Below are positions 326 to 60,904 of a stretch of DNA of 64,000 nt, in pieces. The translations under genes and the position numbers were made by a program. The notes beneath the pieces are model-generated. The model was not told the DNA's origin. It saw only the letters and a list, made by a program, of their open reading frames with translations, and ran no database searches. Source of the stretch: Botryobacter ruber (GTDB lineage Bacteria; Bacteroidota; Bacteroidia; Cytophagales; Hymenobacteraceae); NCBI RefSeq assembly GCF_003347595.2, contig NZ_QCZK02000041.1, forward strand, positions 62,001-126,000, written 5' to 3'. The stretch's first letter is position 1; the number at the start of each line of letters is the position of its first letter.

Positions 326-430
326 AGCCCCCTCTCTCCTGTTAAAACTTCTCTCGTTCCTTCACAATGCCAGGGAGCGTAATTTCCTCCTGCTGCACAA
401 TTCGGCCTTCCCTTTGCGCTTGCAGCAGGT

Positions 431-456
431 GCAGCGGGAATGGTGGCAGCTGCAGC
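431..456 (+). repeat. GCAG dispersed repeat, copy 1
   Basis: Reads GCAGCGGGAATGGTGGCAGC then TGCAGC, followed by AAAT. The ends GCAGC and GCTGC can pair. Best matched by the copy at 60871. Confidence 0.7.
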
Positions 457-12586: not shown

Positions 12587-13149
12587 AACAAATTTCAGCT
12601 GCTTGTTTCCTTTTTGTCTTAGGGCAGTTTACAGGCACACGGTCGCCGATCCTTCAGCTTCGCAACGGAACCGGCAGCAACACGAACTGCGATTCAAAAA
12701 ACAAAAAATCAATCCGGCTCACCCCCCTTTCTCTTCACCGGGTACTTGTTAAGGAACAATGCAGGAACACACCATGCTGCCAGATAAACCAAATACAATT
12801 TTGGCAGTTTTTGCGGATTATCCGCGGCAGGCATTTCGTGTTTTTTTGACGAATTTTATTTTATCCTATTTATTTTAACCAACCCACCAACACGTCAGCA
12901 GCCTGCAACAGCATCACCAGTTCAAAACAAATTCAATTATCCAGTACAATTAATCCGCTGCACATTATTTAATAAGTGCAATTAATAAAAATTTATTATA
13001 AAAATAACAGAACCTTTATATAGTATTTTCTTCATGCAAAATTTGATATTTTTGCAATTTTTATTACTTTACAAGCTATTTTTTCAAGAATTTTAGCTCT
13101 TTGTAAAAAAAACATGAACAAGCATTCGCTTTTTAAAAATAACGCTTGT

Positions 13150-13157
13150 TACCTTTG
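13150..13157 (+). promoter_or_regulatory. candidate -7 promoter of lyase lipoprotein 1
   Basis: TACCTTTG matches TAnnTTTG exactly. The surrounding CTTGTTACCTTTGCATATCA is nearly repeated before the second lyase gene at about 15789-15808 (CACCTTTG there). Use of this promoter implies a leader of about 250 bases. Confidence 0.5.
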
Positions 13158-13277
13158 CATATCACTTATAACGAAATAGTTAAACAAGGATAAATTTTTA
13201 GTTCTACGTTTTTTTCTAATCAAACCGGAACCAACAACTGCAAAAACCGGTTACAAAAGCGAAACAAAAAACTTAGA

Positions 13278-13412
13278 ACAACCACAAAAACCCCTACTAC
13301 GGCACTTCAGTTAAAACTGAAGTTTTCAACCTGACGATCAATTTTTATTCTATTATTTTTAATTGAATAATACAATTCAAAAACAAACTTTTCAACTTTT
13401 AGCCAAAAAAAG
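13278..13412 (+). promoter_or_regulatory. conserved 5' leader of lyase lipoprotein 1
   Basis: This stretch before the ATG is almost identical to 15923-16057 before the paralogue, although the sequence further upstream has diverged. It contains a hairpin CTTCAG/CTGAAG at about 13306-13325 whose stem is kept and loop changed in the other copy, then an AT-rich arm pair (ATTCTATTATT with AATTGAATAAT) close to the start. An untranslated regulatory element or translation control is inferred. Confidence 0.45.
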
Positions 13413-14648
13413 ATGAACTTCAAATTTCGTAATGTTTTAACACCTTTCTTATTAGGATTAGCAGTAGTAGCTTGTGAGCAAAAAGAAATGGAGCAAATGT
13501 CTCCTAACGCAGCCATCACGGCACAGTCAACCAACGCAGCAACAACGGCCAACCTGCTTTATGAAGAGACATTTGAAGGAAGCTCTTATTTCCCGCTTTC
13601 CGGCTCTACCCTTAATAAAACCCATAATGTCGAAAACTGCGAAACAGACTGGACACTCTCCTCTGTAAGCAGCCCGGTTTTCCAGGGTTCTAAAGCTGCC
13701 CGCTTCGAGATCAGGCAAGGACAGCCGTTGGTAGGATCCGGTGAGAAAATCCGTTCTGAAGTAACGATTATCAAAGGAACAGAAGATTCCCGCTTCACCA
13801 AAGATATCTGGTACTCGTTCGCGGTGTATTTCCCTTCCGTTGGTTTTGAGTACGACGACGAAAGAGACTGCCTGAACCAGTGGTACGAAGACGGAAGCGA
13901 CGAAACAACTATCCGTGCCGAGAAAGACAAAGTGTTCCTGGAAGTAACGCCAAAAGAAGGATCTTCTTCTTTAATGAAGTACGACCTGTTCGGCTCTAAC
14001 TCAGGATCCAGCTCCAGCGCACTTTCTACCTTCAACAACATCCCGAAAAACCAGTGGAACGAATTTACTTTCCACTTCATCCACTCGGAAGGCTCTGACG
14101 GTCTGATTGAGGTATTCCGCAACGGGGTAAAAATCCACCACATTACCGGACGTAACATGCACCTGGAATATCCAAAATGGAAACTGGGTCTGTACAAGTC
14201 GTCATTCCTGGATGGTTCTTCCAAGCACCAGTCACGCGTGGTTTACTTCGACAATATCCGTGTAGGTAAAACTGCTGCCACTCTGGTAGACATGGTTTCA
14301 GGCGAAGCAACCGGTTCTAACACTGGCTCTACTAGCGAAACAGGAACAGGCACTACCACAGACACCAACACAGGGTCTACCACTGAAACAGAAACTGGTA
14401 CTACTACTGAAACGGAAACTGGTTCTACAACCGAAACTGAAACTGGCTCGACTACCGAGACTGAAACTGGCTCGACTACCGAGACTGAAACAGAAACGAC
14501 TACCGATTCCAACACTGGCTCTGAGACTGAGACAACTGTAGATTCACCTACAGATACAGACGCTGGTTCAGAAACAAAAATAAAAGGACCAAAAGGCAAA
14601 GGCCAAACCAAAGGAAAAGCTTACGGCCGAACAAATAAAGCTGCCTGA
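13413..14648 (+). CDS. polysaccharide lyase lipoprotein (heparin-lyase-I-like fold), copy 1
   Basis: Surface lipoprotein of 411 residues: signal peptide with lipobox VVAC (Cys21), then a beta-jelly-roll lyase domain (about residues 48-290) resembling the family that includes heparin lyase I and glucuronan lyases, with EKIRSEV, IWYSFAVYFPS, QWNEFTFHFIHSEGSDGLIE and RVVYFDNIRVG. It would cleave a uronic-acid polymer by beta-elimination; the substrate is not certain. Residues about 300-385 are a Thr/Glu/Gly-rich linker built from an 8-residue unit, and the C-terminus is a basic Lys/Gly tail. It is a tandem paralogue of the gene at 16058, near-identical up to the linker. Confidence 0.82.
   Translation: MNFKFRNVLTPFLLGLAVVACEQKEMEQMSPNAAITAQSTNAATTANLLYEETFEGSSYFPLSGSTLNKTHNVENCETDWTLSSVSSPVFQGSKAARFEIRQGQPLVGSGEKIRSEVTIIKGTEDSRFTKDIWYSFAVYFPSVGFEYDDERDCLNQWYEDGSDETTIRAEKDKVFLEVTPKEGSSSLMKYDLFGSNSGSSSSALSTFNNIPKNQWNEFTFHFIHSEGSDGLIEVFRNGVKIHHITGRNMHLEYPKWKLGLYKSSFLDGSSKHQSRVVYFDNIRVGKTAATLVDMVSGEATGSNTGSTSETGTGTTTDTNTGSTTETETGTTTETETGSTTETETGSTTETETGSTTETETETTTDSNTGSETETTVDSPTDTDAGSETKIKGPKGKGQTKGKAYGRTNKAA
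14326..14520 (+). repeat. 24-base minisatellite in lyase 1 linker
   Basis: Repeats a 24-base unit encoding T-T-T-E-T-E-T-G or S-T-T-E-T-E-T-G, with synonymous drift. The same unit occurs in the paralogue at 16966-17187. Confidence 0.85.
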
Positions 14649-14656
14649 TTTTTAGA

Positions 14657-14680
14657 GCACAGGTAAAGGTTTACCTGTGC
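14657..14680. terminator. hairpin after lyase 1
   Basis: Perfect 11-bp arms GCACAGGTAAA / TTTACCTGTGC with a GG loop, nine bases after the stop. No T-tract follows; it precedes a stronger terminator. Confidence 0.5.
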
Positions 14681-14696
14681 AGCTAAGCAAAGCTTA

Positions 14697-14740
14697 CCCA
14701 CAAAAAAAGGATACCAAGCCAGGTATCCTTTTTTTGTGGG
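14697..14740. terminator. intrinsic terminator of lyase 1
   Basis: Perfect 19-bp inverted repeat, arms CCCACAAAAAAAGGATACC and its complement, with an AAGCCA loop. The arm ends in seven T, so it can work in both directions. Confidence 0.8.
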
Positions 14741-14920
14741 CATACTAATTCCAACTTCCCGCTCTTCAGCAACACAAACAACTGCCACCACTTTCCTGCT
14801 TTAAACCAGGCGCACCACAGCTTAAAATTAAACCCTGTATGCCGGGCAGCACAAAAGACGCAATAGCTACATCTTAGCCCCTTTTACGCCAACCACCTTT
14901 AATTCGCTCTTGTTTAATAA

Positions 14921-14952
14921 GCAGCAGAGGCGCTGGTAGCAGGCACAGCAGC
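14921..14952 (+). repeat. GCAG dispersed repeat, copy 5
   Basis: Reads GCAGCAGAGGCGCTGGTAGC then AGGCACAGCAGC; diverged from the TGTGGTGGC core. Confidence 0.5.
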
Positions 14953-15164
14953 ATAAAACAGCAGAAGCCACCAACCTTAAACTGGCAGAAGATAATGCCA
15001 TGTACTGTTTCAGTACCTCAACTTACCGCTGCCAGGAGAACAGATTCAGCACCTGATCCAGCAGAAGCCTCCCCTCAGGACAATCGGAAGAGTTTTCCTT
15101 TTACAGACCAATGCTACGCAAACAACATTCACCCTGCTACAGCCAATCTTACAAAAAAAATTTA

Positions 15165-15196
15165 GCTGCAGCTACCACCATTGCCTTTGCTCCTGC
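15165..15196 (-). repeat. GCAG dispersed repeat, copy 6
   Basis: Minus-orientation copy GCTGCAGCTACCACCATTGC then CTTTGCTCCTGC, preceded by an AAAAAAAATTT run. Confidence 0.65.
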
Positions 15197-15922
15197 AACA
15201 ACTACTTCATAGCTTCAAATTGGCCATATCTAGCACATCCTGACGTCAACCGGCAAGCGGTACACAGCACGAGAAGAACCATAGCTTGTGTCGCCACAGC
15301 GCTTCACAAGCCTGCTGCTGCACCTCCAACAGGCACCTTTATGCCGACCTGGCTATACCACACAATATCATCAGCAAACAACACCCATCCCCTACCCGGG
15401 AACCACCCACACACCCAGCTGCACACCAGATAAATCAAATACAATTTCACCCAAACACACAAACTTACTTCCGCAGGCAATTCGTGTTTTTCTGACAAAT
15501 TTTATTTTTTACAATTTAAGGATAGAAAATTTTTTATTTCACAGCACACAATACACCATAACTTTATAGCGTTATGTGCAATTTAAAAATACAATAAAAT
15601 AGATCTTGTTTATGGAAATTGTTATAATTTAAAAATACTGCTAAAAATATTAGAAACATTTAATATATATTTTCGCCCGATAAAAACTTGCTATTTTTGT
15701 AATTTTTTACACTAGTTACGCTAATTTTTAAAGAATTTTGCAGTTTTACGAAAAATTTATTGACAAACATTATTCTGTTTTAAATAACACTTGTCACCTT
15801 TGCATATCAACTTTAACGAAAAAGTTAAAATTGATACCAATCACAGTTTCTGTGTTTTTTTATAACGTTGTGTGAACTTTAACTTTATTACATCGGTTAC
15901 ACAATCAGAAAACAAAACATAG

Positions 15923-16057
15923 ACAACCACAAAAACCCCTACTACGGCACTTCAGACAAAACTGAAGATTTCAACCTGACGATCAATTTTTATTCTATTA
16001 TTTTTAATTGAATAATACAATTCAAAAACAAACTTTTCAACTTTTAGCCAAAAAAAG
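15923..16057 (+). promoter_or_regulatory. conserved 5' leader of lyase lipoprotein 2
   Basis: Near-identical to 13278-13412. The hairpin is CTTCAG/CTGAAG with a changed loop (ACAAAA instead of TTAAAA or similar), so the stem is conserved while the loop drifts. Confidence 0.45.
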
Positions 16058-17548
16058 ATGAACTTTAAATTTCGTAATGTTTTAACCCCTTTCTTATTAG
16101 GATTTGCAGTAGTTGCATGTGAGCAAAATGAAATGGAGCAAATGACTCCAAATGCAGCCATCACGGCACAGTCAACCAACGCAGCAACAACGGCCAACCT
16201 GCTTTATGAAGAGACGTTTGAAGGAAGCTCTTATTTCCCGCTTTCCGGCTCTACTCTTAACAAAACCCACAACATCGAAAACTGCGAAACAGACTGGACA
16301 CTTTCCTCTGTAAGCAGCCCGGTTTTCCAGGGTTCTAAAGCTGCCCGCTTCGAGATCAGGCAAGGACAACCACTGGTAGGATCCGGTGAGAAAATCCGCT
16401 CTGAAGTAACGATTATTAAAGGAACGGAAGATTCCCGCTTCACCAAAGACATCTGGTACTCATTCGCGGTGTATTTCCCTTCTGTAGGCTTTGAGGCTGA
16501 CAGTGAAAGAGACTGCCTGAACCAGTGGTATGAAGACGGAAGTGATGAGACTACAATCCGTGCACAGGATGATAAAGTGTTCCTGGAAGTAACGCCAAAA
16601 GAAGGTTCTTCTAGCCTGTTGAAATACGACCTGTTCAGCTCAAACCCAGGTTCAACTTCGCATTCTTCCTTCAATAATATCCCGAAAAACCAGTGGAACG
16701 AGTTTACTTTCCACTTTATTCACTCTGAAGGTTCTGACGGCCTGATCGAGGTATTCCGCAACGGTGTGAAAATCCACCACATTACCGGACGCAACATGCA
16801 CCTGGAGTATCCAAAATGGAAAGTGGGTCTGTACAAGTCGTCATTCCTGGATGGTTCTTCCAAGCACCAGTCACGTGTGGTTTACTTTGATAACATCCGT
16901 GTAGGTAAAACTGCCGCTACCTTAGTAGATATGATTTCCGGTGAGGCTACTGGTTCTAACACTGGCTCTACTACCGAAACTGAAGTAGGTACTACAACTG
17001 ATACTGAAGTAGGTACTACAACTGAAACAGAAACTGGCACAACTACCGAAACGGAAACTGGTACTACTACCGAAACAGAAACCGGTACTACTACCGAGAC
17101 TGAAACAGAAGTAGGCACTACCACCGAGACGGGAACAGGTACTACGACTGAAACGGAAACTGGTACTTCTACCGGTTCAACTACAACTGGTGCTCAAGTA
17201 GTAAGCTTCACCCTGATCGATGCTTCTAAAGACAGGGAAATCATGACGATTACGAACGGCGCTGTAATTGACCTGAAAAAGCTGGATGTTGATAAAATTA
17301 ATATCCGCGCTAACACAAACGGTTCTGCAGTTGTAGAATTCAAGTTGAGCGGCGAAGAAAGCGATTACAGAGTTGACGATGTAGCGCCTTATGCACTGGC
17401 TGGCGACGATAGAAACGGGAACTACTATTCCTGGTCTCCTGACGAAGGCGATTACACGCTGCAGGCTACGCCACGTGCCGGTACCAAGAAGGATATGGGA
17501 GCACCAACTGGTCCTACCTATAAAATCAACTTCAAAATTGTTGACTAA
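16058..17548 (+). CDS. polysaccharide lyase lipoprotein (heparin-lyase-I-like fold), copy 2
   Basis: Paralogue of the gene at 13413, 496 residues, with the same lipobox (Cys21) and lyase domain (residues about 48-290) and only scattered changes, for example EADSERD for EYDDERD. After the Thr/Glu/Gly repeat linker (about residues 300-375) it carries an extra beta-sandwich domain (about 380-496: VVSFTLIDASKDREIMTI, then LDVDKINIRANTNGSAVVEF, ending TYKINFKIVD) of a kind common in Bacteroidota surface proteins and likely involved in binding. Copy 1 lacks this and has a basic tail. It is convergent with kduI and shares a terminator with it. Confidence 0.83.
   Translation: MNFKFRNVLTPFLLGFAVVACEQNEMEQMTPNAAITAQSTNAATTANLLYEETFEGSSYFPLSGSTLNKTHNIENCETDWTLSSVSSPVFQGSKAARFEIRQGQPLVGSGEKIRSEVTIIKGTEDSRFTKDIWYSFAVYFPSVGFEADSERDCLNQWYEDGSDETTIRAQDDKVFLEVTPKEGSSSLLKYDLFSSNPGSTSHSSFNNIPKNQWNEFTFHFIHSEGSDGLIEVFRNGVKIHHITGRNMHLEYPKWKVGLYKSSFLDGSSKHQSRVVYFDNIRVGKTAATLVDMISGEATGSNTGSTTETEVGTTTDTEVGTTTETETGTTTETETGTTTETETGTTTETETEVGTTTETGTGTTTETETGTSTGSTTTGAQVVSFTLIDASKDREIMTITNGAVIDLKKLDVDKINIRANTNGSAVVEFKLSGEESDYRVDDVAPYALAGDDRNGNYYSWSPDEGDYTLQATPRAGTKKDMGAPTGPTYKINFKIVD
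16966..17187 (+). repeat. 24-base minisatellite in lyase 2 linker
   Basis: About nine units encoding T-T-T-E-T-E-T-G and variants with E-V-G in place of E-T-G. Unit number differs from the paralogue at 14326. Confidence 0.85.
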
Positions 17549-21832: not shown

Positions 21833-22270
21833 TGGTAGTGATTTTATATTTGTCTGAACCTTTGATTTACGCTGATTTAATTGATTTACTTGATTAGTTT
21901 TCAGAATCAGGATTTACAGAATTAAATTGTCTGAACACGATTAAGAAGATTAATAGATTACCAGGAGCAGAGGCAATGGTGGCTGGAGCTGCAGAGCCAG
22001 ACTACCATCAGACTTGAGTGAAATATCTCACCAATTTTGAAAATTCTAAAAAATCTGTAAATCCTGATTCAGAAAAAAAAATCAAGTAAATCAATTGAAT
22101 CAGCGAAAATCAAAGGTTCAGACAAATAATCCTGTTAATCCATTAATCATTCAATCGTGTTCAGACAAACATAAAATCACAAACATCATTTCATCACTAC
22201 CATCAACGGTTCAGAAAAATATAACATCACAGCAATCAATTAAATCAGCGTAAATCAAAGGTTCAGACAG
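21820..22270. repeat. nested inverted-repeat cluster of GATTTA/GTTCAGA units
   Basis: Several arms pair across this 450-base stretch. Arm CTGAACCTTTGATTTACGCT at 21854 is inverted at 22246-22266; a close version is inverted at 22103-22123. CTGAACCGTTGATGGTAGTG at 21821 is inverted at 22194-22213. CTGAACACGATT at 21931 is inverted near 22154-22165. The inner sequence repeats GATTTA every 9-11 bases. A GCAG repeat sits in the centre (21964) and another just past the end (22275). Confidence 0.75.
21964..21995 (+). repeat. GCAG dispersed repeat, copy 8
   Basis: Reads GGAGCAGAGGCAATGGTGGC then TGGAGCTGCAGA, in the loop of the nested inverted-repeat cluster. Confidence 0.65.
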
Positions 22271-22274
22271 GAAT

Positions 22275-22303
22275 AGCAGAGGGTGTGGTGGCAGCTGCAG
22301 AAC
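22275..22303 (+). repeat. GCAG dispersed repeat, copy 9
   Basis: Reads AGCAGAGGGTGTGGTGGCAG then CTGCAGAAC with an A-rich tail, directly after the inverted-repeat cluster. Confidence 0.7.
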
Positions 22304-31855: not shown

Positions 31856-34633
31856 ATGAAAAACACTTTACAGTTGTTATACAAACGTTTGTTCCTGAAC
31901 CGCAGAAGCAACCAGTGCCTGGCACTGCTGCTTCTGCTGGCTTCAACAACCGCTGCGCTGGCACAGCAACCGGTGGTGAAGGTGGATTTTAACCAGTATG
32001 GCCGACAGGAGGCAGAGGTGCATGAGCAGGGGTACGAACCCTGGACATTTCCTGCCTCCAGCTCCGTTAGCCGTACCTTTGGCGCCGTTACCATAACCTT
32101 TAAAGCCGCGGGCTCATCTACCTTCAGCACCGACTGGTACAAAGCCGGCATACAGGCTCCTTACTACGCCCGGCTCGTCAACGACGGGCTTAGCGCCGAA
32201 AAGGTTGAAATGCACATCAGTGGGTTGCCCGAAGGAACGCATACGCTCCTCAGTTTCCACAACACCTTCGCCAACCCGCTTACGAACACCTTCAGCCCCA
32301 TCGATATTTCCGTGGACGGCACACAGGTAGTGAACAACCTGGTACCCAGCAACCGCGTCAGCACCACATCGGAAGCAGCTACCGCTTACCTGACCTTTAC
32401 GGCCCGTGCCGGCCAGGATGTGGTGGTGCTGTTTTCGCCGGAAATGTCTTCTACTGCCAACCTGAAGCAGGTAACCATCAGCGGCTTTGAACTAAACACG
32501 CCCAATGCACAGCACCAGTCCCGCCTGCCCCTGCCAGCCGACGGCGACGAACATGCCGATGCCGATGCAAAAAACATCACCCTGAAATGGACTGCAGCCA
32601 CCGGCGCCGTGTCGCATGATGTGTATTTCGGTACTGAAGCTGCCACCATTGCCACTGCCGATCGCAGCTCCGGCCTGTACCGCGGAAACCAGGCTGCCAC
32701 AGAGCACCAGGTAAACGGCCTCTACAGCATGGAAACCTACTACTGGCGTGTAGATGAGGTGGATGCCGCAGGCAACATTACGAAAGGCAACGTCTGGTAC
32801 TTCCGGCCCCGCCAGCTGGCGTTTGCCGGTGCCGAAGGCTATGGCCGCTATGCCCGCGGCGGCCGCGGTGGCAAGGTAGTGGAAGTGACCAACCTCAACG
32901 ACAGCGGACCGGGCAGCCTGCGCGAAGCCGTAACCAATGACATTGGCCCGCGCACCATTGTGTTTGCAGTTTCGGGCATTATCGAGCTGCAGTCGCGCCT
33001 GGTGCTCAACCAGCCTTACGTAACCGTAGCCGGACAAACGGCTCCGGGTAAAGGCATCACCATCCGCAGCGCCCCCTTCGGCGTTACCGGAAACGATGCC
33101 GTGCTCCGCCACCTGCGGGTGCGGCTGGGCGCCGGCACTACCTACGACGGCATGGGCCTGACTGGCGCCGACCACAGCATCATCGACCACAGCTCCATCT
33201 CCTGGACCATCGACGAGGCTTTCAGCTCGCGGGGCGGGAAAAACATCACGCTGCAGCGCACGCTCATTTCGGAGGCGCTCAATATTGCCGGGCACAAGAA
33301 CTACCCCGCCGGAAGCCAGCATGGCTATGCGGCCACCATCGGGGGCGATATCGGCAGCTTCCACCATAACCTGCTGGCCCATTGCTATGGCCGTAACTGG
33401 AGCCTGGGCGGCGGCCTGGACGGCAACGGCGCCTATGCCGGCAGGCTCGACATCCGCAACAACGTGGTGTACAACTGGGGCGCCCGCACCACCGACGGCG
33501 GCGCCCATGAGGTGAACTTCGTGAACAATTACTACAAACCCGGATCTGCCTCTACCTACTTCTACGCCCTGAACGCACAGCACGAGGCAGTAGGCACCGG
33601 CACGCAACGCTACTTCTTTGACGGCAACGTGATGCCGGGCCGTTTCGACGAGAGCAACCAGGCTGCCGGCCGCCGCATCAGCGGCTCCGCCTCCTACGAA
33701 ACGTTTGTAAATCAGCCTTTCTTCCCCTCCTATGTTACCACCCAGTCGGCAGGCGATGCCTACAAGCTGGTGCTGTCGGATGTGGGATGTACGCAGCCGG
33801 TGTTCGACGACCACGACATCCGCATCATCACCGAAACCCTGGGCGGAACCTTTACCTACCGGGGCAGCGTGAGCGGCAAAGCGGGTCTGCCGGACTCGCA
33901 CCTGGATGTGGGCGGCTACGAAGATTACCCGCTAGTGCAGCGTCCGGCCACCTGGGACAGCGACCACGACGGCCTGCCCGACTGGTGGGAAAATGCGCAC
34001 GGCCTCAATCCGAACTCCGGCCAGGGCGACTTCTCCGACGCCAACGCCGACCCCGACCGCGACGGCTACACGCAACTCGATAACTACCTCGGCTGGATGG
34101 CTGCCCCGCACTTTGCCACTACCCAGGGGCAGCAACTGGTGGTAGACCTGCAGAAGCTCTCCCGCGGCTTTACGGACCAGCCCACCTACACCGTATCGGG
34201 AGCAGAAAACGGCACCGTAACCGTAGAACCCAACAGCAGCGTGGCCTTGTTTACCTCCGCCAACCCCGGCCTGGCCTCTTTCCGCTTCACCGTTACCGAC
34301 GCCTCCGGCAGCTCCATGACACGTACAGTGGGCATTTACGCAGCTGGAAATCCGCTGGGGCTGGAAGAAGAGCTAAGGCCGTTCCAGGTGCAGTGCTACC
34401 CAAACCCTGCTTCGGGGAACGAACTGGCTGTTGCCGTATTTATGGAGAAAGCTGCTCCTGCCTCCATTACAGTTACCAATGTGCTGGGCAGCCAGGTGCT
34501 GCTGAAAGAGTGCCGGTTTGCAGCTGCTGAAAACAAAATTACGCTGGATGTTTCAGGCCTTTCAACAGGTTTGTATTTTGTTACGGTTACAACCCCGGAT
34601 AAGCAACTGACGGTGAAAGTGCTGAAAAAGTAA
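31856..34633 (+). CDS. secreted pectate lyase with T9SS type A sorting domain
   Basis: A 925-residue multidomain enzyme. Signal peptide to about residue 38 (ends AALAQQ); a beta-rich N-terminal domain (about 40-215); a fibronectin-III-like domain (about 220-315); a right-handed beta-helix pectate-lyase-like domain (about 322-690) beginning AFAGAEGYGRYARGGRGG, with GPRTIVFAVSGII, VTVAGQTAPG and DHSIIDHSSISWTIDE; an Asp-rich calcium-binding segment (DSDHDGLPDWWENAHGL near 700); another beta domain; and a C-terminal type IX sorting signal (about 845-925, CYPNPASGNELAV and STGLYFVTVTT). It would cut polygalacturonate outside the cell by beta-elimination. The uronate products could feed KduI. Confidence 0.92.
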   Translation: MKNTLQLLYKRLFLNRRSNQCLALLLLLASTTAALAQQPVVKVDFNQYGRQEAEVHEQGYEPWTFPASSSVSRTFGAVTITFKAAGSSTFSTDWYKAGIQAPYYARLVNDGLSAEKVEMHISGLPEGTHTLLSFHNTFANPLTNTFSPIDISVDGTQVVNNLVPSNRVSTTSEAATAYLTFTARAGQDVVVLFSPEMSSTANLKQVTISGFELNTPNAQHQSRLPLPADGDEHADADAKNITLKWTAATGAVSHDVYFGTEAATIATADRSSGLYRGNQAATEHQVNGLYSMETYYWRVDEVDAAGNITKGNVWYFRPRQLAFAGAEGYGRYARGGRGGKVVEVTNLNDSGPGSLREAVTNDIGPRTIVFAVSGIIELQSRLVLNQPYVTVAGQTAPGKGITIRSAPFGVTGNDAVLRHLRVRLGAGTTYDGMGLTGADHSIIDHSSISWTIDEAFSSRGGKNITLQRTLISEALNIAGHKNYPAGSQHGYAATIGGDIGSFHHNLLAHCYGRNWSLGGGLDGNGAYAGRLDIRNNVVYNWGARTTDGGAHEVNFVNNYYKPGSASTYFYALNAQHEAVGTGTQRYFFDGNVMPGRFDESNQAAGRRISGSASYETFVNQPFFPSYVTTQSAGDAYKLVLSDVGCTQPVFDDHDIRIITETLGGTFTYRGSVSGKAGLPDSHLDVGGYEDYPLVQRPATWDSDHDGLPDWWENAHGLNPNSGQGDFSDANADPDRDGYTQLDNYLGWMAAPHFATTQGQQLVVDLQKLSRGFTDQPTYTVSGAENGTVTVEPNSSVALFTSANPGLASFRFTVTDASGSSMTRTVGIYAAGNPLGLEEELRPFQVQCYPNPASGNELAVAVFMEKAAPASITVTNVLGSQVLLKECRFAAAENKITLDVSGLSTGLYFVTVTTPDKQLTVKVLKK

Positions 34634-34747: not shown

Positions 34748-37700
34748 TTACAACCCTCCGGTAATTGTATTCATCAGGCGGTAGATCAGTTCCGGCATCA
34801 GGCTGGAAGCGATACCGCTCAGCAGCGACTGGCTCATGTGGTGGAAAACCGACCGCTGGTAAACGCGTTCCTTTTTAATTTCCCCCTCCCTGAAATTTCC
34901 CCAGTGGGTCGGGTTGTTGGATTTGATGACCAGGGTGTTCAGGAGCCAGGTTCCGGCATGCAGCATAAAGCCCGGGTTGCCGGGGTCCTGCTTGCTCAGG
35001 AGCTGGATTTTCAGTTTGCTGTAGGGGAAGTGCAGCCTGCCGGTGGCCAGGTGCTCCGTTGCTTCTACCGAAAAAGAAGCCTCGAAAATCTGGCCGCGCT
35101 CCACCCGGATAAACATCATGGGTGCGATTAAGGGGTTGAAAGCCGTAAAATCCATGGGCGCCAGCGTGCCTTCGTAGGTGTACAGGCTTTCGGGGTGGTC
35201 CAGGTAAAACAGGAAACGGACCTTCAGGATACTTTTGCCCATAAACAGTGCAGCGGCATCGGCGGTAATTTTGTTATTCTGCCGGATGAGCGAAGAGTCG
35301 TTGGTTACGTTCAGCAACTTCAGCTGCATCTCTTCGAGCAGGAGCACTCCCGGCTCCCGGGCATTAACGGCAATCACCGGGTGGACGAGCTTCCCGTTTT
35401 CCAGTTCCACGGTATCTATCCTGATGTACAGGCCTGCCTGCAGAAGCCGCTGCTGCAGGGTAGGCGGTTTTCTTTCGGGGTTGATGCCGATGCGGTTGTC
35501 GCGGTAAATTTCCACTTCCGGACGCTCAATCTGCATTTTCTGCACGACCAGGCGCTGGTTGTTAAACAGCGCCCGGAAACTCATGCCCTGCAGCCTGATA
35601 GCCGGCACCACCATATCGATCCGGTCCTCGGCAAATTCCAGTTTTTCGGCATACTCGGCTTTGGAGTAAAGGGGCTGGTAACGCAGGCTGTCGATGGCGA
35701 GGGTGTGGTTGTGCAGCGAAGACCGTATCTCTTTTATGTGCAGGGCATACAAACTGTCGGCGGAAATGTGGGTGTAATCGCGCACGACGATGCCAAACGC
35801 ATCAAAGTCAAAAATATTCAGCGGTTCGGTAGCATCCAGCGAGACCAGCCGCAGCTGCTCTATGGCAACGGCAATACGCGGTATGGTGTGGCTTTGGCGG
35901 GTGGTATCTTTCAGGAGGTGGATGCTGAAGGTGCCTTCTGTCACGCGCAGGCGCTCTACCCGGAACACATCCACCCGCTGGTCTACCTGTTCCATCACCT
36001 GGTTATTTGCTGCGCCTCCTTCAGCAGCCTTCGGCTTCCGGGCCTGCACGTTCTGGTCCTGCAGCACTTCCACTTCGGGCGCCGTCAGCAGCATTTCCTC
36101 GATGGTATACTGCCCGGTGGCATAGGCCCGGATCAGGTCCAGGCCGGTAACACGGAGGCGCTTCGACCGGATGTCGAAGAGGTTGCGGCTGGCTTTTGCC
36201 GGGCTTTCTTTTTTCAGACGTTCGTTTACCTCTTTGTCGGAATTAACGGTGAAGGTACGGGCGTCAAGCTCCTGGCTCCGGCTGGAATAATGCACACTGT
36301 CAAGCTTAATGGTGTAGAGGCTGTCGGCGGATAGGAAGGTGTAGTCCTCGGCTGTCAGGCGCACCTCCTGCACCGGCAGCGCCTCTTCCAGGTTGGCCAC
36401 ACTGGCAGGTGTCAGGTGAAGTTCTGAGACCGTGGCAGAAACACGCTCCAGCACATGCACGTCGGTTATGTCAGCACGCTTTTCGCGCAGCATAAACGTG
36501 CCGTCCTCCAGCCGCAGGGTAGTTACCGTGACCGGATTCAGCAGTCCGAAAAGTCCGTTGGCATAATCTTCTGCCTGGTCGGGGGGCGCTGCCGCGATGT
36601 TGCGGTCCAGCATCATTTCAAGGTCGGGCTGCCGGATGACCACCTGGTCGGCCGACAGCCTGCCGGTGTTCAGGGCTTTTACCAAGTCTACACCCGTCGC
36701 CCTGACAGAGGAAGCGGAAATATCGTAGCGGTTGCGGCTGGCCTGGTCTTGCTGCATCAGCCGTGCCCTTGCTTCCCGGCCGGAGTTTACGGCCAGCGAC
36801 TGCGCACTGAGCACCTGCTCCCGGGTAGAATACCGCAGGCTGCCCAAGGAAAAATCGTAGGTATTGTCGGGCTTGTGGTAGGTGTAGTGGCGGGCGGAGA
36901 GCACCAGCTCGTCCAGCGGCAGCGTTGCCTCCGGATGATACACAAAGGCAGAATCTACGGTGAGGCCGGTAGCTGCCAGGGAAGCGTGCTCTAGTTGTTG
37001 CAGGAGCTGCACATGCCGGTCTTTGATGTGGTGTGTGAGCGAAGCGCCTGTAACGTTTATATTCCCGATCTCAAGCGCCGAAAAAATATCTGAAACGTGC
37101 CGGTAAATTTCCTGCAGGTCCGGCCCCTCCCCCTGCTTTGGCACCTGCCGGTCGGTATGCACCCCTACAGCCGGATTAGCGACCACCACACTCCCAATCG
37201 AGAGCCGGGACGTCTGCAGCGCCTTCAGCAGCTCCAGGTTGCGGAAGCGCAGCTGCGGAATGCTGATGTCGTAAAACGTACGCTGTGCCTTGCCCACCCT
37301 TTTCAGGCTGTCGTTTTTGTTCCAGTCGCCTTCCATCCTGACATTTGTGGCCTGCAGGTAATTACCGGTGGTAGACAGCTCTGTTTTTTCTGCCTTCAGC
37401 ACATAAGGTTTGTTAAGGGGAGTATAGGTGTATTCTGCCGCTGTTACAACAGCCTCTGCTGCAAATAACTTTTCTTTCGGGCGGAACAGAGACACGGAAT
37501 CGAGCTGTACATCCTGCAGGGCAAGGGAAGCTTTTTTAAGCTGGTGAATGGTGTACACTTCCTCCTGCTGCCGGCGGTACCGGAAGCCTGCATCTGCCAA
37601 ACGGAACTCCTCCATCCCCACCGCCTTCAGGTAAGGCGACAGCTTTGCATACAGCTCCTGCAGCCCCTGAAAACCGCCGGAACCGGGCACGGTGGTGTCT

Positions 37701-38653
37701 TCGAGCATCTCCAGCATGGGCTGCTGCACCAGGAAGCGGTCCAGTTGCAGCGCTTTGGTGCGCCAGACTTCCGGCAGGTCCAGGCCCGTGATCTGCAGCA
37801 GGGGCACCCGCAGCTGGTATAACATGCGGCTTGCTTTTTCCGGGTCCAGCGCCCGGTTCGACTTTGCGCTGGACTGCACCTCCACCGCCTCAGCCTTCAG
37901 TTCCTCCCGGCGGGTGGAATAGGAAAACAGCCCTACCCGCACCTTGTACACGCTGTCGGGCGCCTGGTAGGCGTACTGTTGCGCCTCCAGCTCCAGGTCG
38001 TCCACCGCTGCCAGTTGCGAAAAATCGGGTTGCTGCAGGTCGTCCAGCAGCAGGTCGTGTACCCGCAGGGTGAGCTTCGGCACCTGGTGCACCGGCCTCT
38101 CCTCCGTCCCCTGCACCAGGTAGCGGTAGCTTCCCTCCTGCAGGCGAAGTTCCCCGATACGGAGCGATTTTAGTCTGCTGCCGCTGCCACCATTCCCGCT
38201 GCTCCTGTCTGCACCGGCTGTAACTTTCGTATGCGTGACAGCAGGCTTTCGGGCTGTTACCGTGCCTATGTTTAACCTGTTCCGCAAAAGTAAATCGAGC
38301 ACCCGGATGCCTTCAAAAGAGATTTTCGGCGACTTCAGTTCAAAAAGACTGCCTGCTGCCTGGCCTGACTTTTGTTGCTGCCGGAACGCAGCCGTATCGG
38401 GGTACAGGTGCACCTCGTGCAGGGTAACACTAACGGTAAAAGGCTTCAGCTGCACCTCGCCAAGCTCCAGGTGGTAGCGTCCGTTGGTTTGCTGCGCTAC
38501 CTGCTTTTTCAGATACCCCTCCACCAGCGGCTCAGCCCAGAAAAACAACACCACCAGCGCTACCAGCAACAGGCCGGCCAGGCTGACAAGTACAATACCT
38601 GCCGCTTTCAGAATTCCGGAACCTGTACCGTTTTTTTTAGCGGGTTGTGCCAT
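34748..38653 (-). CDS. giant AsmA/TamB-like envelope protein with internal repeats
   Basis: A 1301-residue protein with an N-terminal membrane anchor (residues about 14-40, KAAGIVLVSLAGLLLVALVV) and a long beta-rich region facing the periplasm, as in AsmA/DUF748 proteins thought to bridge the membranes and move lipids. A unit of roughly 180-220 residues recurs about six times, each with a core such as VTGLDLIRAYATGQYTIEEM and a tail xxPxxExxxDxN (LQITGLDLPEV, LRFRNLELLKAL, VRATGVDLVKAL, LRVTGLDLIRAY, IRLQGMSFRALF). A GCAG repeat lies in frame near residues 150-160 as a Ser/Gly-rich linker (SSGNGGSGS). It is monocistronic and convergent with the pectate lyase. Confidence 0.7.
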   Translation of the reverse strand: MAQPAKKNGTGSGILKAAGIVLVSLAGLLLVALVVLFFWAEPLVEGYLKKQVAQQTNGRYHLELGEVQLKPFTVSVTLHEVHLYPDTAAFRQQQKSGQAAGSLFELKSPKISFEGIRVLDLLLRNRLNIGTVTARKPAVTHTKVTAGADRSSGNGGSGSRLKSLRIGELRLQEGSYRYLVQGTEERPVHQVPKLTLRVHDLLLDDLQQPDFSQLAAVDDLELEAQQYAYQAPDSVYKVRVGLFSYSTRREELKAEAVEVQSSAKSNRALDPEKASRMLYQLRVPLLQITGLDLPEVWRTKALQLDRFLVQQPMLEMLEDTTVPGSGGFQGLQELYAKLSPYLKAVGMEEFRLADAGFRYRRQQEEVYTIHQLKKASLALQDVQLDSVSLFRPKEKLFAAEAVVTAAEYTYTPLNKPYVLKAEKTELSTTGNYLQATNVRMEGDWNKNDSLKRVGKAQRTFYDISIPQLRFRNLELLKALQTSRLSIGSVVVANPAVGVHTDRQVPKQGEGPDLQEIYRHVSDIFSALEIGNINVTGASLTHHIKDRHVQLLQQLEHASLAATGLTVDSAFVYHPEATLPLDELVLSARHYTYHKPDNTYDFSLGSLRYSTREQVLSAQSLAVNSGREARARLMQQDQASRNRYDISASSVRATGVDLVKALNTGRLSADQVVIRQPDLEMMLDRNIAAAPPDQAEDYANGLFGLLNPVTVTTLRLEDGTFMLREKRADITDVHVLERVSATVSELHLTPASVANLEEALPVQEVRLTAEDYTFLSADSLYTIKLDSVHYSSRSQELDARTFTVNSDKEVNERLKKESPAKASRNLFDIRSKRLRVTGLDLIRAYATGQYTIEEMLLTAPEVEVLQDQNVQARKPKAAEGGAANNQVMEQVDQRVDVFRVERLRVTEGTFSIHLLKDTTRQSHTIPRIAVAIEQLRLVSLDATEPLNIFDFDAFGIVVRDYTHISADSLYALHIKEIRSSLHNHTLAIDSLRYQPLYSKAEYAEKLEFAEDRIDMVVPAIRLQGMSFRALFNNQRLVVQKMQIERPEVEIYRDNRIGINPERKPPTLQQRLLQAGLYIRIDTVELENGKLVHPVIAVNAREPGVLLLEEMQLKLLNVTNDSSLIRQNNKITADAAALFMGKSILKVRFLFYLDHPESLYTYEGTLAPMDFTAFNPLIAPMMFIRVERGQIFEASFSVEATEHLATGRLHFPYSKLKIQLLSKQDPGNPGFMLHAGTWLLNTLVIKSNNPTHWGNFREGEIKKERVYQRSVFHHMSQSLLSGIASSLMPELIYRLMNTITGGL
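38175..38206 (-). repeat. GCAG dispersed repeat, copy 13, inside a coding region
   Basis: Same element as the intergenic copies (plus strand CTGCTGCCGCTGCCACCATT then CCCGCTGCTCCT), but inside the AsmA-like gene, where it encodes SSGNGGSGS in frame. Confidence 0.7.
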
Positions 38654-38818: not shown

Positions 38819-39064
38819 TGTAGGGACAAGCCGCGACTCAATGCCGTCTGCTTAGGGACTTTCAAATTCCAGGTGTAGTTTTCTTTAAGTTGACGGCATT
38901 AGGTCGCGACCCAATTCCTTAAGTTGATGGCATTGGATCCCGACCTGTCCAATCGGCTGCGATCAAATCCTGCAGGCGCTATTGTTCAGGTAAAGAAATG
39001 GCGAAATGTAGAACGGCAGGAATTGCCGGTGCACGATCAGGACAAGTCGCGACTTGTCCCTACA
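38819..39064. repeat. MITE-like element with TGTAGGGACAAG ends
   Basis: The ends are inverted: TGTAGGGACAAG at 38819 and CTTGTCCCTACA at 39053-39064. It includes the perfect 20-base palindrome GGACAAGTCGCGACTTGTCC (39040-39059) and inner GTTGACGGCATTAGGTCGCG and GTTGATGGCATT repeats. Related to the element at 48569. Confidence 0.7.
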
Positions 39065-39156: not shown

Positions 39157-40215
39157 CTACTTCCGCGACTGTTCAAAGGAGAGGTTCCTGGCAAAAAAGT
39201 CGAGCATCGTGGTGCGGATGCGTTCGGCTACGCGGTTGGTGTGGTTGCCCTGGTACTCTTCGTACTCGTGTTTGATGCCGTAGAGGTCGAGTACCTTGTC
39301 GAGCTCCCTGATGCTGGCGGCAATGCTGCGGTCCTGGTGGCCGGCATCGAAGGCCAGCGCGTTGAGCTTCCGGATGTTGTAAATGTGTTGGTCGATGGTT
39401 ACCAGCGGGCGGTTAGCCGACCATTTGGTCAGCACCGAGGGCTGTACCTGCCCGTTTTCCACCGGAAGGTCGAGGTAAAAAGGCGGCTTTACAGGATTAG
39501 GCGACCAGGCAGCTGCCGAGGCAAAGATGATCCTGGTAAAGAAATCGGCTTTCTCCAGGTCGGCCTGCGTTTGCACGGCTTCTACGCGGGCCCGGGCGGC
39601 GCTGTCCTGGGGCATAAAGCTCTGGGGTTCCAGGCAGCAGGGGCTCAGCAGGTAGAGGGCCGAAAACACCTCCGGGAACTTCTGCCCGATGCGCATGGCC
39701 CCGTAGCCGCCCATGGAATGCCCGGCCAGTCCGCGGCTACCGGCTTTTGGGATGGTGCGGTAGTGGCTGTCGATGTAGGCCACGAGCTCTTTGGCGATGT
39801 AGTCTTCCCAGTTGCCGGTAGTGGCGGAGTTGGAATACATGCTGCCCTGGAAACGGGTGTAGGCATTGGGCGTGACCACAATCATCTCAGGCTTGTTGCC
39901 TTCGGAAAAAGCTTTGTTCAGTTCGTTGGGCAGGCTCATCCAGTGTTTCTCCAGCCCAAAGGTTTTAGCATCGGAATCGGTGTAGCCATGCAGCAGGTAC
40001 ACGACTGGGTACCGCCGCTTCTTCTCCTTGCCATAGCCGGGCGGCAGGTACACCGACACCTCCCGGTCCGGCGAGTCGCCCGCCAGGTTTCCTTCCAGCG
40101 CCTTGCCATGCACCTTAATGCGTTCGATGGTGCCTTGCTTCTGGGCGAATGCAGGAAGTGCTGTGAGTATGGTGAGTGCTGCAGTAAGGGATAGCAGGAG
40201 GCGGAGTTTTTTCAT
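39157..40215 (-). CDS. secreted alpha/beta-hydrolase esterase (esterase D-like)
   Basis: A 352-residue exported esterase: signal peptide to about residue 25 (LPAFAQ), then an alpha/beta hydrolase of the putative esterase family that includes feruloyl and acetylxylan esterases. VSVYLPPGYG and YPVVYLLHGYTDSD give the oxyanion-hole region, and the nucleophile Ser lies in GLAGHSMGGYGAM near residue 170. AFDAGHQD near residue 290 and a later His (YQGNHTN, about residue 326) supply the acid and base. It may remove ester groups from plant polysaccharides, but this is inferred. The gene is preceded by palindromic DNA at 40266-40331. Confidence 0.85.
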   Translation of the reverse strand: MKKLRLLLSLTAALTILTALPAFAQKQGTIERIKVHGKALEGNLAGDSPDREVSVYLPPGYGKEKKRRYPVVYLLHGYTDSDAKTFGLEKHWMSLPNELNKAFSEGNKPEMIVVTPNAYTRFQGSMYSNSATTGNWEDYIAKELVAYIDSHYRTIPKAGSRGLAGHSMGGYGAMRIGQKFPEVFSALYLLSPCCLEPQSFMPQDSAARARVEAVQTQADLEKADFFTRIIFASAAAWSPNPVKPPFYLDLPVENGQVQPSVLTKWSANRPLVTIDQHIYNIRKLNALAFDAGHQDRSIAASIRELDKVLDLYGIKHEYEEYQGNHTNRVAERIRTTMLDFFARNLSFEQSRK

Positions 40216-48568: not shown

Positions 48569-48742
48569 GTAGGGACAGGTCGCGACCTGTCCAATCGTTC
48601 CCGATCCACAGCAGCCGATCCAATCGTTCCCAGTCCAAATAAGTAGATTCGATTATTCCTGAACCATTGCGGCCTTCACCTACTTCATTACCTGTGCATG
48701 ATTGGTTCGCAGCCGATTGGACAGGTCGCGACCTGTCCCTAC
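48569..48742. repeat. MITE-like element with GTAGGGACAGGTCGCGACC ends
   Basis: A 174-base element whose two ends are inverted copies: GTAGGGACAGGTCGCGACCT then GTCCAATCG at the left, and CGATTGGAC then AGGTCGCGACCTGTCCCTAC at the right. Each end contains the 20-base palindrome GGACAGGTCGCGACCTGTCC. No gene inside. It splits spoVR from yeaH. Confidence 0.82.
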
Positions 48743-48763
48743 ATTATTTCTTTCGCCCCCTGC

Positions 48764-48803
48764 AACTCCCAAACTCTCTAACTCCCAAACTTCCTAACTT
48801 CCC
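48764..48803 (-). repeat. AACTYYC heptad array at the end of the yeaH-like gene
   Basis: Repeats of AACTCCC, AACTCTCT, AACTTCCT in seven-base steps. The stop codon of the yeaH-like gene (TAG, 48794-48796 on the minus strand) lies inside it. Confidence 0.65.
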
Positions 48804-50063: not shown

Positions 50064-50260
50064 GGAGTTTGGAAGTTAGAAAGTTAAAAAGTTAGAAAGT
50101 TTGGGAGTTGAGAAATTTGAAAATCTGGAAGTTAGAAACTGGTAAAAATGAAACCGGAATTCTGTAATTTCTAAAATTCAGCAAATCCTCATTCAGACGA
50201 CAATAATCATCTGACTCTTAACTTTCTAACTTTCTAACTTCCAAACTTTCTAACTCTCTA
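50064..50260. repeat. inverted AACTTTC heptad arrays between yeaH-like and prkA
   Basis: Bases 50064-50139 are a run of GGAAGTTAGAAAGTTA-type heptads; bases 50215-50260 are the complementary TAACTTTCTAACTTTC run, so the gap can fold into a long hairpin. The prkA stop (TAG, 50258-50260 on the minus strand) lies in the second arm. Confidence 0.75.
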
Positions 50261-60823: not shown

Positions 60824-60857
60824 TTTTGCAGCCGCCACCATTCCCGCCGCTGCTCCT
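60824..60857 (-). repeat. GCAG dispersed repeat, copy 19
   Basis: Minus-orientation: TTTTGCAGCCGCCACCATTC then CCGCCGCTGCTCCT, the outward-facing partner of copy 20, 13 bases away. Confidence 0.75.
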
Positions 60858-60870
60858 CCGTACATTTGGC

Positions 60871-60904
60871 AGGAGCAGCGGGAATGGTGGCGGCTGCAGC
60901 AAAA
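60871..60904 (+). repeat. GCAG dispersed repeat, copy 20
   Basis: Plus orientation: AGGAGCAGCGGGAATGGTGG then CGGCTGCAGCAAAA. With copy 19 it forms a near-perfect 33-base inverted pair; this is the clearest instance of the element boundaries, including the A tail. Confidence 0.8.

Follow-up and report, generated by a model that had tools for sequence, protein, structure and literature searches.

An abundant repeat, restricted to Botryobacter ruber among the genomes searched, with a double-helix signature in its spacing and flanks

Introduction

The sites of DNA gyrase in E. coli, as described from Topo-Seq, the Mu SGS and BIME-2, share a motif in which two periodic arms of 47 bp flank a centre of 36 bp (PMC6379681). 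Such periodicity is described for DNA laid round a protein surface in nucleosomes and with gyrase, and very strong sites slow the enzyme (PMC6379681). Gyrase enrichment downstream of E. coli genes is described as not encoded in the sequence. Published preferences for the gyrase cleavage core are -4G/+8C, -2A/+6T and +1G/+4C (PMC12324340). Two other classes of abundant short sequence have been described. A REP element consists of a GT(A/G)G head followed by a GC-rich palindrome, and the associated RAYT gene is flanked by inverted copies (PMC2817692). DNA uptake sequences, known from Pasteurellaceae and Neisseriaceae, are built by point mutation, favour neither orientation and are scarce in segments that a genome has newly acquired (PMC7811141, PMC1939737).

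Here we analyse a repeat of Botryobacter ruber, whose genome comprises 5.84 Mb in 62 contigs. The starting point is a stretch of 64,000 nucleotides (the window), and the genome sample analysed is 2,055,156 bases (2.06 Mb), window included. The repeat is real, very abundant and restricted to one species among the searched genomes, and it carries a strong and unexpected signature of the double helix. No description of it was found among the titles and abstract openings that our literature searches returned.

Results

The original prediction placed a high-copy dispersed repeat at 20 positions of the window, all of which fall on copies scored by a position matrix trained on the genome. A 20-mer taken from the prediction has 19 matches in the window with at most 3 mismatches, against 0.27 expected; two of them (1658 and 1661) overlap each other and score at most 9.1 bits by the later matrix. 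The matrix finds 23 window copies above 15 bits, namely the 20 predicted ones and three more inside genes (32634, 37435 and 40157; marked as new below).

428..455, + strand, core copy, 42.8 bits
483..510, - strand, core copy, tail-to-tail with 428, 33.1 bits
3656..3683, + strand, core copy, 45.8 bits
11069..11096, - strand, core copy, 47.7 bits
14921..14948, + strand, core copy, weaker, 26.6 bits
15166..15193, - strand, core copy, 39.2 bits
18740..18767, - strand, core copy, 48.7 bits
21964..21991, + strand, core copy, 42.6 bits
22273..22300, + strand, core copy, 41.0 bits
25659..25686, + strand, core copy, 46.2 bits
31490..31517, - strand, core copy, 42.1 bits
31668..31695, - strand, core copy, 32.9 bits
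32634..32661, - strand, core copy in gene 31856-34633 (T9SS sorting tail, Pfam), new, 29.8 bits
37435..37462, - strand, core copy in gene 34748-38653 (DUF748-like, Pfam, below curated cut-off), new, 28.0 bits
38178..38205, - strand, core copy in gene 34748-38653, 42.1 bits
39075..39102, + strand, core copy, weak, 22.5 bits
40157..40184, + strand, core copy in gene 39157-40215 (putative esterase, Pfam), weak, new, 24.8 bits
45889..45916, + strand, core copy, 32.8 bits
46752..46779, + strand, core copy, 42.8 bits
48524..48551, - strand, core copy, 36.9 bits
55614..55641, + strand, core copy, top score in the window, 50.0 bits
60826..60853, - strand, core copy, head-to-head with 60872, 29.1 bits
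60872..60899, + strand, core copy, head-to-head with 60826, the pair folding strongly, 40.7 bits

Across the 2.06 Mb the matrix finds 730 core copies, one per 2.8 kb, and the anticipated spread over both orientations is borne out (382 on the + and 348 on the - strand). If the remaining DNA is alike, extrapolation gives about 2,000 copies genome-wide. More than a thousand copies had been expected, and this is probably right: the whole genome holds 1,521 matches to a 20-mer at up to 2 mismatches, compared with 2 when the pattern is reversed as a control. A wider matrix applied to 1.26 Mb returns 452 matches above 16 bits, against 1 in one equal-length fourth-order Markov simulation, so that enrichment over controls, the proposed genome-wide check, holds by either measure. 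The motif carries 40.6 bits of information where 12.5 bits would suffice at the observed density, and the score distribution of the copies is broad, with intermediates present; taken together, this excess and these intermediates indicate drive or several contacts.

The core has a consensus close to GSAGCAGHGGSWRTGGTGGCWGSWGCAG. The tract described as an A tail is present, but consists of either A or T; it lies at about core +33 to +37, with columns 34-35 reading TT in 248 and AA in 143 of 606 copies. Fifty-nine of the 861 column pairs are dependent at z >5, and the dependence is mostly local: among 40 listed of these 59 pairs, 35 lie within four columns, the widest joining columns 28 and 39. 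Near-identical cores are commoner than independence predicts, with 69 rather than 11 of 606 matching their nearest neighbour at 33/34 positions or more, and close inverted pairs share variants beyond random pairs (for example tail-to-tail pairs below 60 bp, n=36, p=0.004, in one of 20 bins tested). Local duplication or conversion of some copies is therefore likely. Beyond about -4 and +38 the flanks have no letters in common and agree only in AT/GC phase. By eye, a GSWGCAG repeat with a spacing of 21 bp is seen inside the motif.

Neighbouring copies are helically phased. For all three orientations together, the 138 neighbour distances below 170 bp, measured centre-to-centre with core position 15.3 as the centre, fall on multiples of 10.40 bp (R=0.63, against a maximum of 0.29 in 2,000 null sets). 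Taken by class, tail-to-tail pairs give R=0.78 with a period of 10.5 (n=63), direct pairs R=0.63 with a period of 10.2 (n=43) and head-to-head pairs R=0.51 (n=24, p=0.033). Measured from first core base to first core base, the phasing reaches about 200 bp in tail-to-tail neighbours and 130 bp in direct ones; pairs beyond this range, 9-10 per class, show none.

The flanks carry the same period. Around isolated intergenic copies the AT content oscillates at 10.4 bp on both sides, with peaks at about 21, 31, 41, 52, 62, 72 and 83 bp from the centre. The profile was drawn from copies of at least 24 bits and flank amplitudes from 290 copies of at least 28 bits; for 540 strong intergenic copies the flank amplitude is 0.063, against at most 0.014 in 300 controls whose anchors were jittered by up to 5 bp. 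Only core columns -1 to 28 entered the scan, so the copies were not chosen for their flanks. Copies inside genes (n=98) show the oscillation within about 40 bp on each side. The mirror symmetry of the flanks is highest about +15.5 (r=0.67; 0.65 at 15.0 and 0.60 at 10.0). The AT pattern of the core alone gives r=0.29 at 15.5 and 0.52 at 12.5, and the core is not palindromic.

With copies placed by midpoint on simple in-house gene calls, 590 of the 730 lie outside called genes and 140 inside, though 79% of the DNA is coding. Convergent gaps are the densest, at 2.65 copies per kb (167 copies), followed by tandem gaps at 1.25 (317 copies) and divergent gaps at 1.10 (95 copies). Within tandem gaps, 234 of 317 copies are closer to the upstream stop than to the downstream start, and orientation is balanced (163 sense, 154 antisense). 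The preference for intergenic sites and gene 3' ends, raised earlier as a point to check, is thus evident. Copies inside genes have a frame bias, 42 of 57 same-strand copies sharing one frame and 60 of 77 opposite-strand copies another. An origin as a coding peptide was considered on this basis and rejected; the bias agrees with peptides rich in Ala/Val or Ala/Pro/Thr being tolerated, but the 590 copies outside called genes do not fit such an origin.

The longest stretch free of copies spans 48,252 bp, where random placement gives a maximum of 24.7 kb on average, with a 95% point of 33.2 kb. Ten of its proteins were scanned, and five are a Mutator-type transposase, a MobA/VirD2-like relaxase, a DUF5906/VapE-like protein, a RadC-like protein and a DDE transposase; the other five comprise three T9SS or cohesin-domain proteins, one weak PLD match and one protein with no match. 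We conclude that the stretch holds a mobile island lacking the motif.

Among related genomes the motif is confined to Botryobacter ruber. A first exact pattern matches 148 times there and not once in 98 relatives (49 of the same genus, 11 of the family, 38 of the order); a second matches 740 times, with at most 2 matches in any of the 4 of 203 other family genomes that have one. A relative whose PhoH-type gene is 79% identical (G020) has no match above 15 bits in 400 kb, its best reaching 12.8, against 159 in the first 400 kb of Botryobacter ruber contig C17. At up to 2 mismatches, two relatives, G026 (21 matches) and G041 (16), stand somewhat above the others. Seven of the 21 in G026 lie on one 128-kb contig (C14), 40 kb of which hold seven copies above 20 bits amid what appear by eye to be carbohydrate-hydrolase genes; compared with the 2.06 Mb of Botryobacter ruber DNA, these 40 kb give only two matches, of 76 and 87% identity. 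The segment may have been acquired from a motif-bearing lineage, a possible trace of transfer. A pattern scan of a broader contig collection gave at least 2 single matches in unrelated MAGs, which we take as chance, and a plasmid collection searched with two motif stretches gave weak matches to unrelated genera, 6 for one stretch and 2 for the other. T9SS sorting domains in its proteins, and a PhoH gene whose best plasmid match falls in Parabacteroides and Bacteroides, agree with the placement of the organism in Bacteroidota.

Several copies inside genes arose by base substitution. A copy of 39-41 bits lies in a conserved stretch of FolP that has the same length in all nine orthologs compared, out of 11 retrieved; at the same offset these nine score -19 to +10 bits. 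Screening 134 in-gene copies against 800 kb of G020 yielded 15 alignable across the copy. Within the copy and the few residues next to it, the relative shows no gap for 8 of these, one of 1-3 aa for 4 and one of 6-7 aa for 3; gaps of core size (at least 9 aa) do not occur. For the nine copies of at least 30 bits the corresponding counts are 4, 2, 3 and 0. Gaps further from the copy escape this count, and C38_72353 has a 10-aa gap downstream in a separate alignment; C17_257317 had a 19-aa gap over the copy in a smaller search set and one of 2 in the present count. These gap counts point to substitution as the main route in genes, with some gain of length in a minority. Conserved gaps between genes are longer here than in G020 by a median of 198 bp where they hold one copy (n=10), 97.5 where they hold two (n=4) and 4 where they hold none (n=53); the intergenic sequences of G020 are too diverged for alignment with copy-bearing gaps.

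The region holds other repeats. GTAG-headed perfect palindromes of the GTAGGGACAGGTCGCGACCTGTCC type lie at 39041-39063, 48569-48591 and 48720-48742 (3 matches, none expected); they form a second, different repeat that looks like a true REP family, and have no match at the three Y1 transposase-like loci of the genome, one of which (L033, contig C46, about 1501-1941) has an internal TGA. Inverted repeats of TGTCTGAACC...AATCAGCG adjoin motif copies at 21847-22292, and similar sequence borders copies elsewhere in the genome. Positions 13038-17182 hold a tandem duplication (about 2.6 kb; parts of it 73-96% identical), each copy with an array of 24-base tandem repeats, and AGTTAGAAAGTT-like short-repeat blocks stand round a DUF444 gene (48763-48802 and 50065-50260). 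In a search of the 800 kb of G020 for a second dispersed motif, the commonest words, of about 30 bases and in 82 copies, look by eye like a CRISPR array.

Discussion

Based on the above data, we propose that each copy is the centre of a putative site at which a protein wraps double-stranded DNA round itself or bends it strongly, a reading that we hold to be probable, though by no means secure. The protein would read the core and have some 65-85 bp on each side lying against its surface; these flanks are AT-rich at every helical turn, and such phasing would help the DNA to wrap. Cores separated by 30-100 bp and on the same face of the helix would share one complex. Strong selection or drive would have shaped the copies, largely in place, through base substitution, for the most part in gaps close to gene 3' ends and with convergent gaps favoured over all others. 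The swing between AT and GC seen here is that of DNA laid round a protein surface, as described for nucleosomes and gyrase (PMC6379681). While the phasing of neighbours and flanks and the symmetry of the flanks are observed, both the wrapping and the protein responsible are what we infer from them.

The first candidate for this protein, put forward tentatively, is DNA gyrase, with positive supercoils at gene ends as its substrate; otherwise, a nucleoid protein special to this lineage may be the binder. The layout speaks for gyrase, with arms of 10-11 bp GC/AT periodicity lying symmetrically round a centre of about 36 bp, as in E. coli, where the sites likewise number in the thousands and gyrase is likewise drawn to regions downstream of transcribed units (PMC6379681). 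However, the E. coli motif is described as too degenerate for standard motif finders, whereas the core here holds 37 bits, and the periodicity extends to about 83 bp rather than about 65 (PMC6379681). Nor does the cleavage core agree: compared by hand with the matrix at centre 15.5, only +1G of the six preferred letters is the main base, with -2A a minority base. Also against gyrase stand the non-palindromic core, whose own AT pattern does not favour the centre 15.5, the E. coli enrichment downstream of genes, which the sequence does not encode, and the slowing of the E. coli enzyme by very strong sites. At profile level the genome's own gyrA scores like the gyrA of the genus, so that it does not account for a species-specific motif; divergence of gyrase A was considered as the cause and set aside, none being seen in this comparison. 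A search for extra HU/IHF-type genes gave 2 matches in this genome, and 1 or 2 in each of the other 49. The gyrase consensus of Lockshon and Morris seemed to fit the centre; it carries no weight as evidence. A further, speculative possibility is a nucleosome-like code, in which a lineage-specific protein would wrap about 170 bp at some two thousand sites near gene ends, with cores sharing wraps and drive writing a 40-bit address by substitution.

The main rival to wrapping, in our judgement an unlikely one, is a DNA uptake (self-recognition) sequence: putative competent cells would prefer DNA bearing the motif, and biased uptake with recombination would build up copies through point mutation. 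Much of what is seen here resembles the uptake sequences of Pasteurellaceae and Neisseriaceae, which are likewise abundant, species-typical, spread over both strands, scarce in new DNA and accompanied by an AT tract near the core, as in the Haemophilus USS (PMC7811141, PMC1939737). The copies are mostly without core-sized gaps, with the reservation that three gained 6-7 aa, the strands are even and the mobile island is free of them; drive could explain the information excess, and copies of intermediate score exist. Yet the Botryobacter ruber core is far longer, and helical phasing over 170 bp, of neighbours and of flanks on both sides, is not among the uptake-sequence traits described in the available parts of these papers (PMC7811141, PMC1939737). 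Moreover, none of 49 sister species has the motif, and ComEC is found only below cut-off (116 against 190 bits), by a model that also misses most control genomes at that cut-off.

The earlier suggestion of a non-autonomous REP- or MITE-type mobile element, moved by a transposase acting in trans, now seems very improbable. Like REP/BIME elements with their RAYT (PMC2817692), the copies are short, intergenic and numerous, occur in both orientations and sometimes form inverted pairs, and the two such pairs that were folded give strong hairpins (z -12.0 and -9.4); three Y1 transposase-like matches exist in the genome, copy-bearing conserved gaps are longer here than in G020 and some close pairs have variants in common. 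Against this, the matrix lacks the GT(A/G)G head characteristic of REP elements (PMC2817692), and the GCAGC/GCTGC hairpin proposed for the single copy is not supported, three idealised singles folding no better than shuffles (z -0.92, 0.50 and 0.54). The predicted Y1/TnpA-REP gene with an adjoining copy did not emerge either: within about 1.5 kb on each side, none of the three Y1 matches is flanked by copies, two having no copy and the third having one good copy (2 mismatches) beyond a neighbouring gene, unremarkable at one per 2.8 kb, and a poor 5-mismatch match. The in-place origin within genes, where 15 of 15 alignable copies lack a core-sized insertion, the copy-free mobile island, the mostly local column linkage and the absence of shared flanking letters likewise argue against mobility. 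Still less probable is an RNA-level signal or transcription terminator at gene 3' ends, the other role that had been suggested. The 3'-end preference and the strong folding of inverted pairs would suit it, but equal numbers of sense and antisense copies in tandem gaps, a tract that is A or T and phasing at the period of B-DNA disfavour it, as do the unfolded single copies and a window in which no Rfam family reaches its gathering threshold.

Should the motif instead serve uptake, this bacterial group, for which our literature search on the point listed no uptake sequence, would have one. If the copies are wrapping sites, chromosome folding and supercoil control would be readable from the sequence at thousands of sites in a bacterium, and if gyrase is the binder, they would form a natural library of strong gyrase sites. 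Lastly, because the motif is restricted to a single species in a family as well sampled as this (204 genomes searched), the origin of a genome-wide binding code, by selection or by drive, becomes a question that can be addressed.
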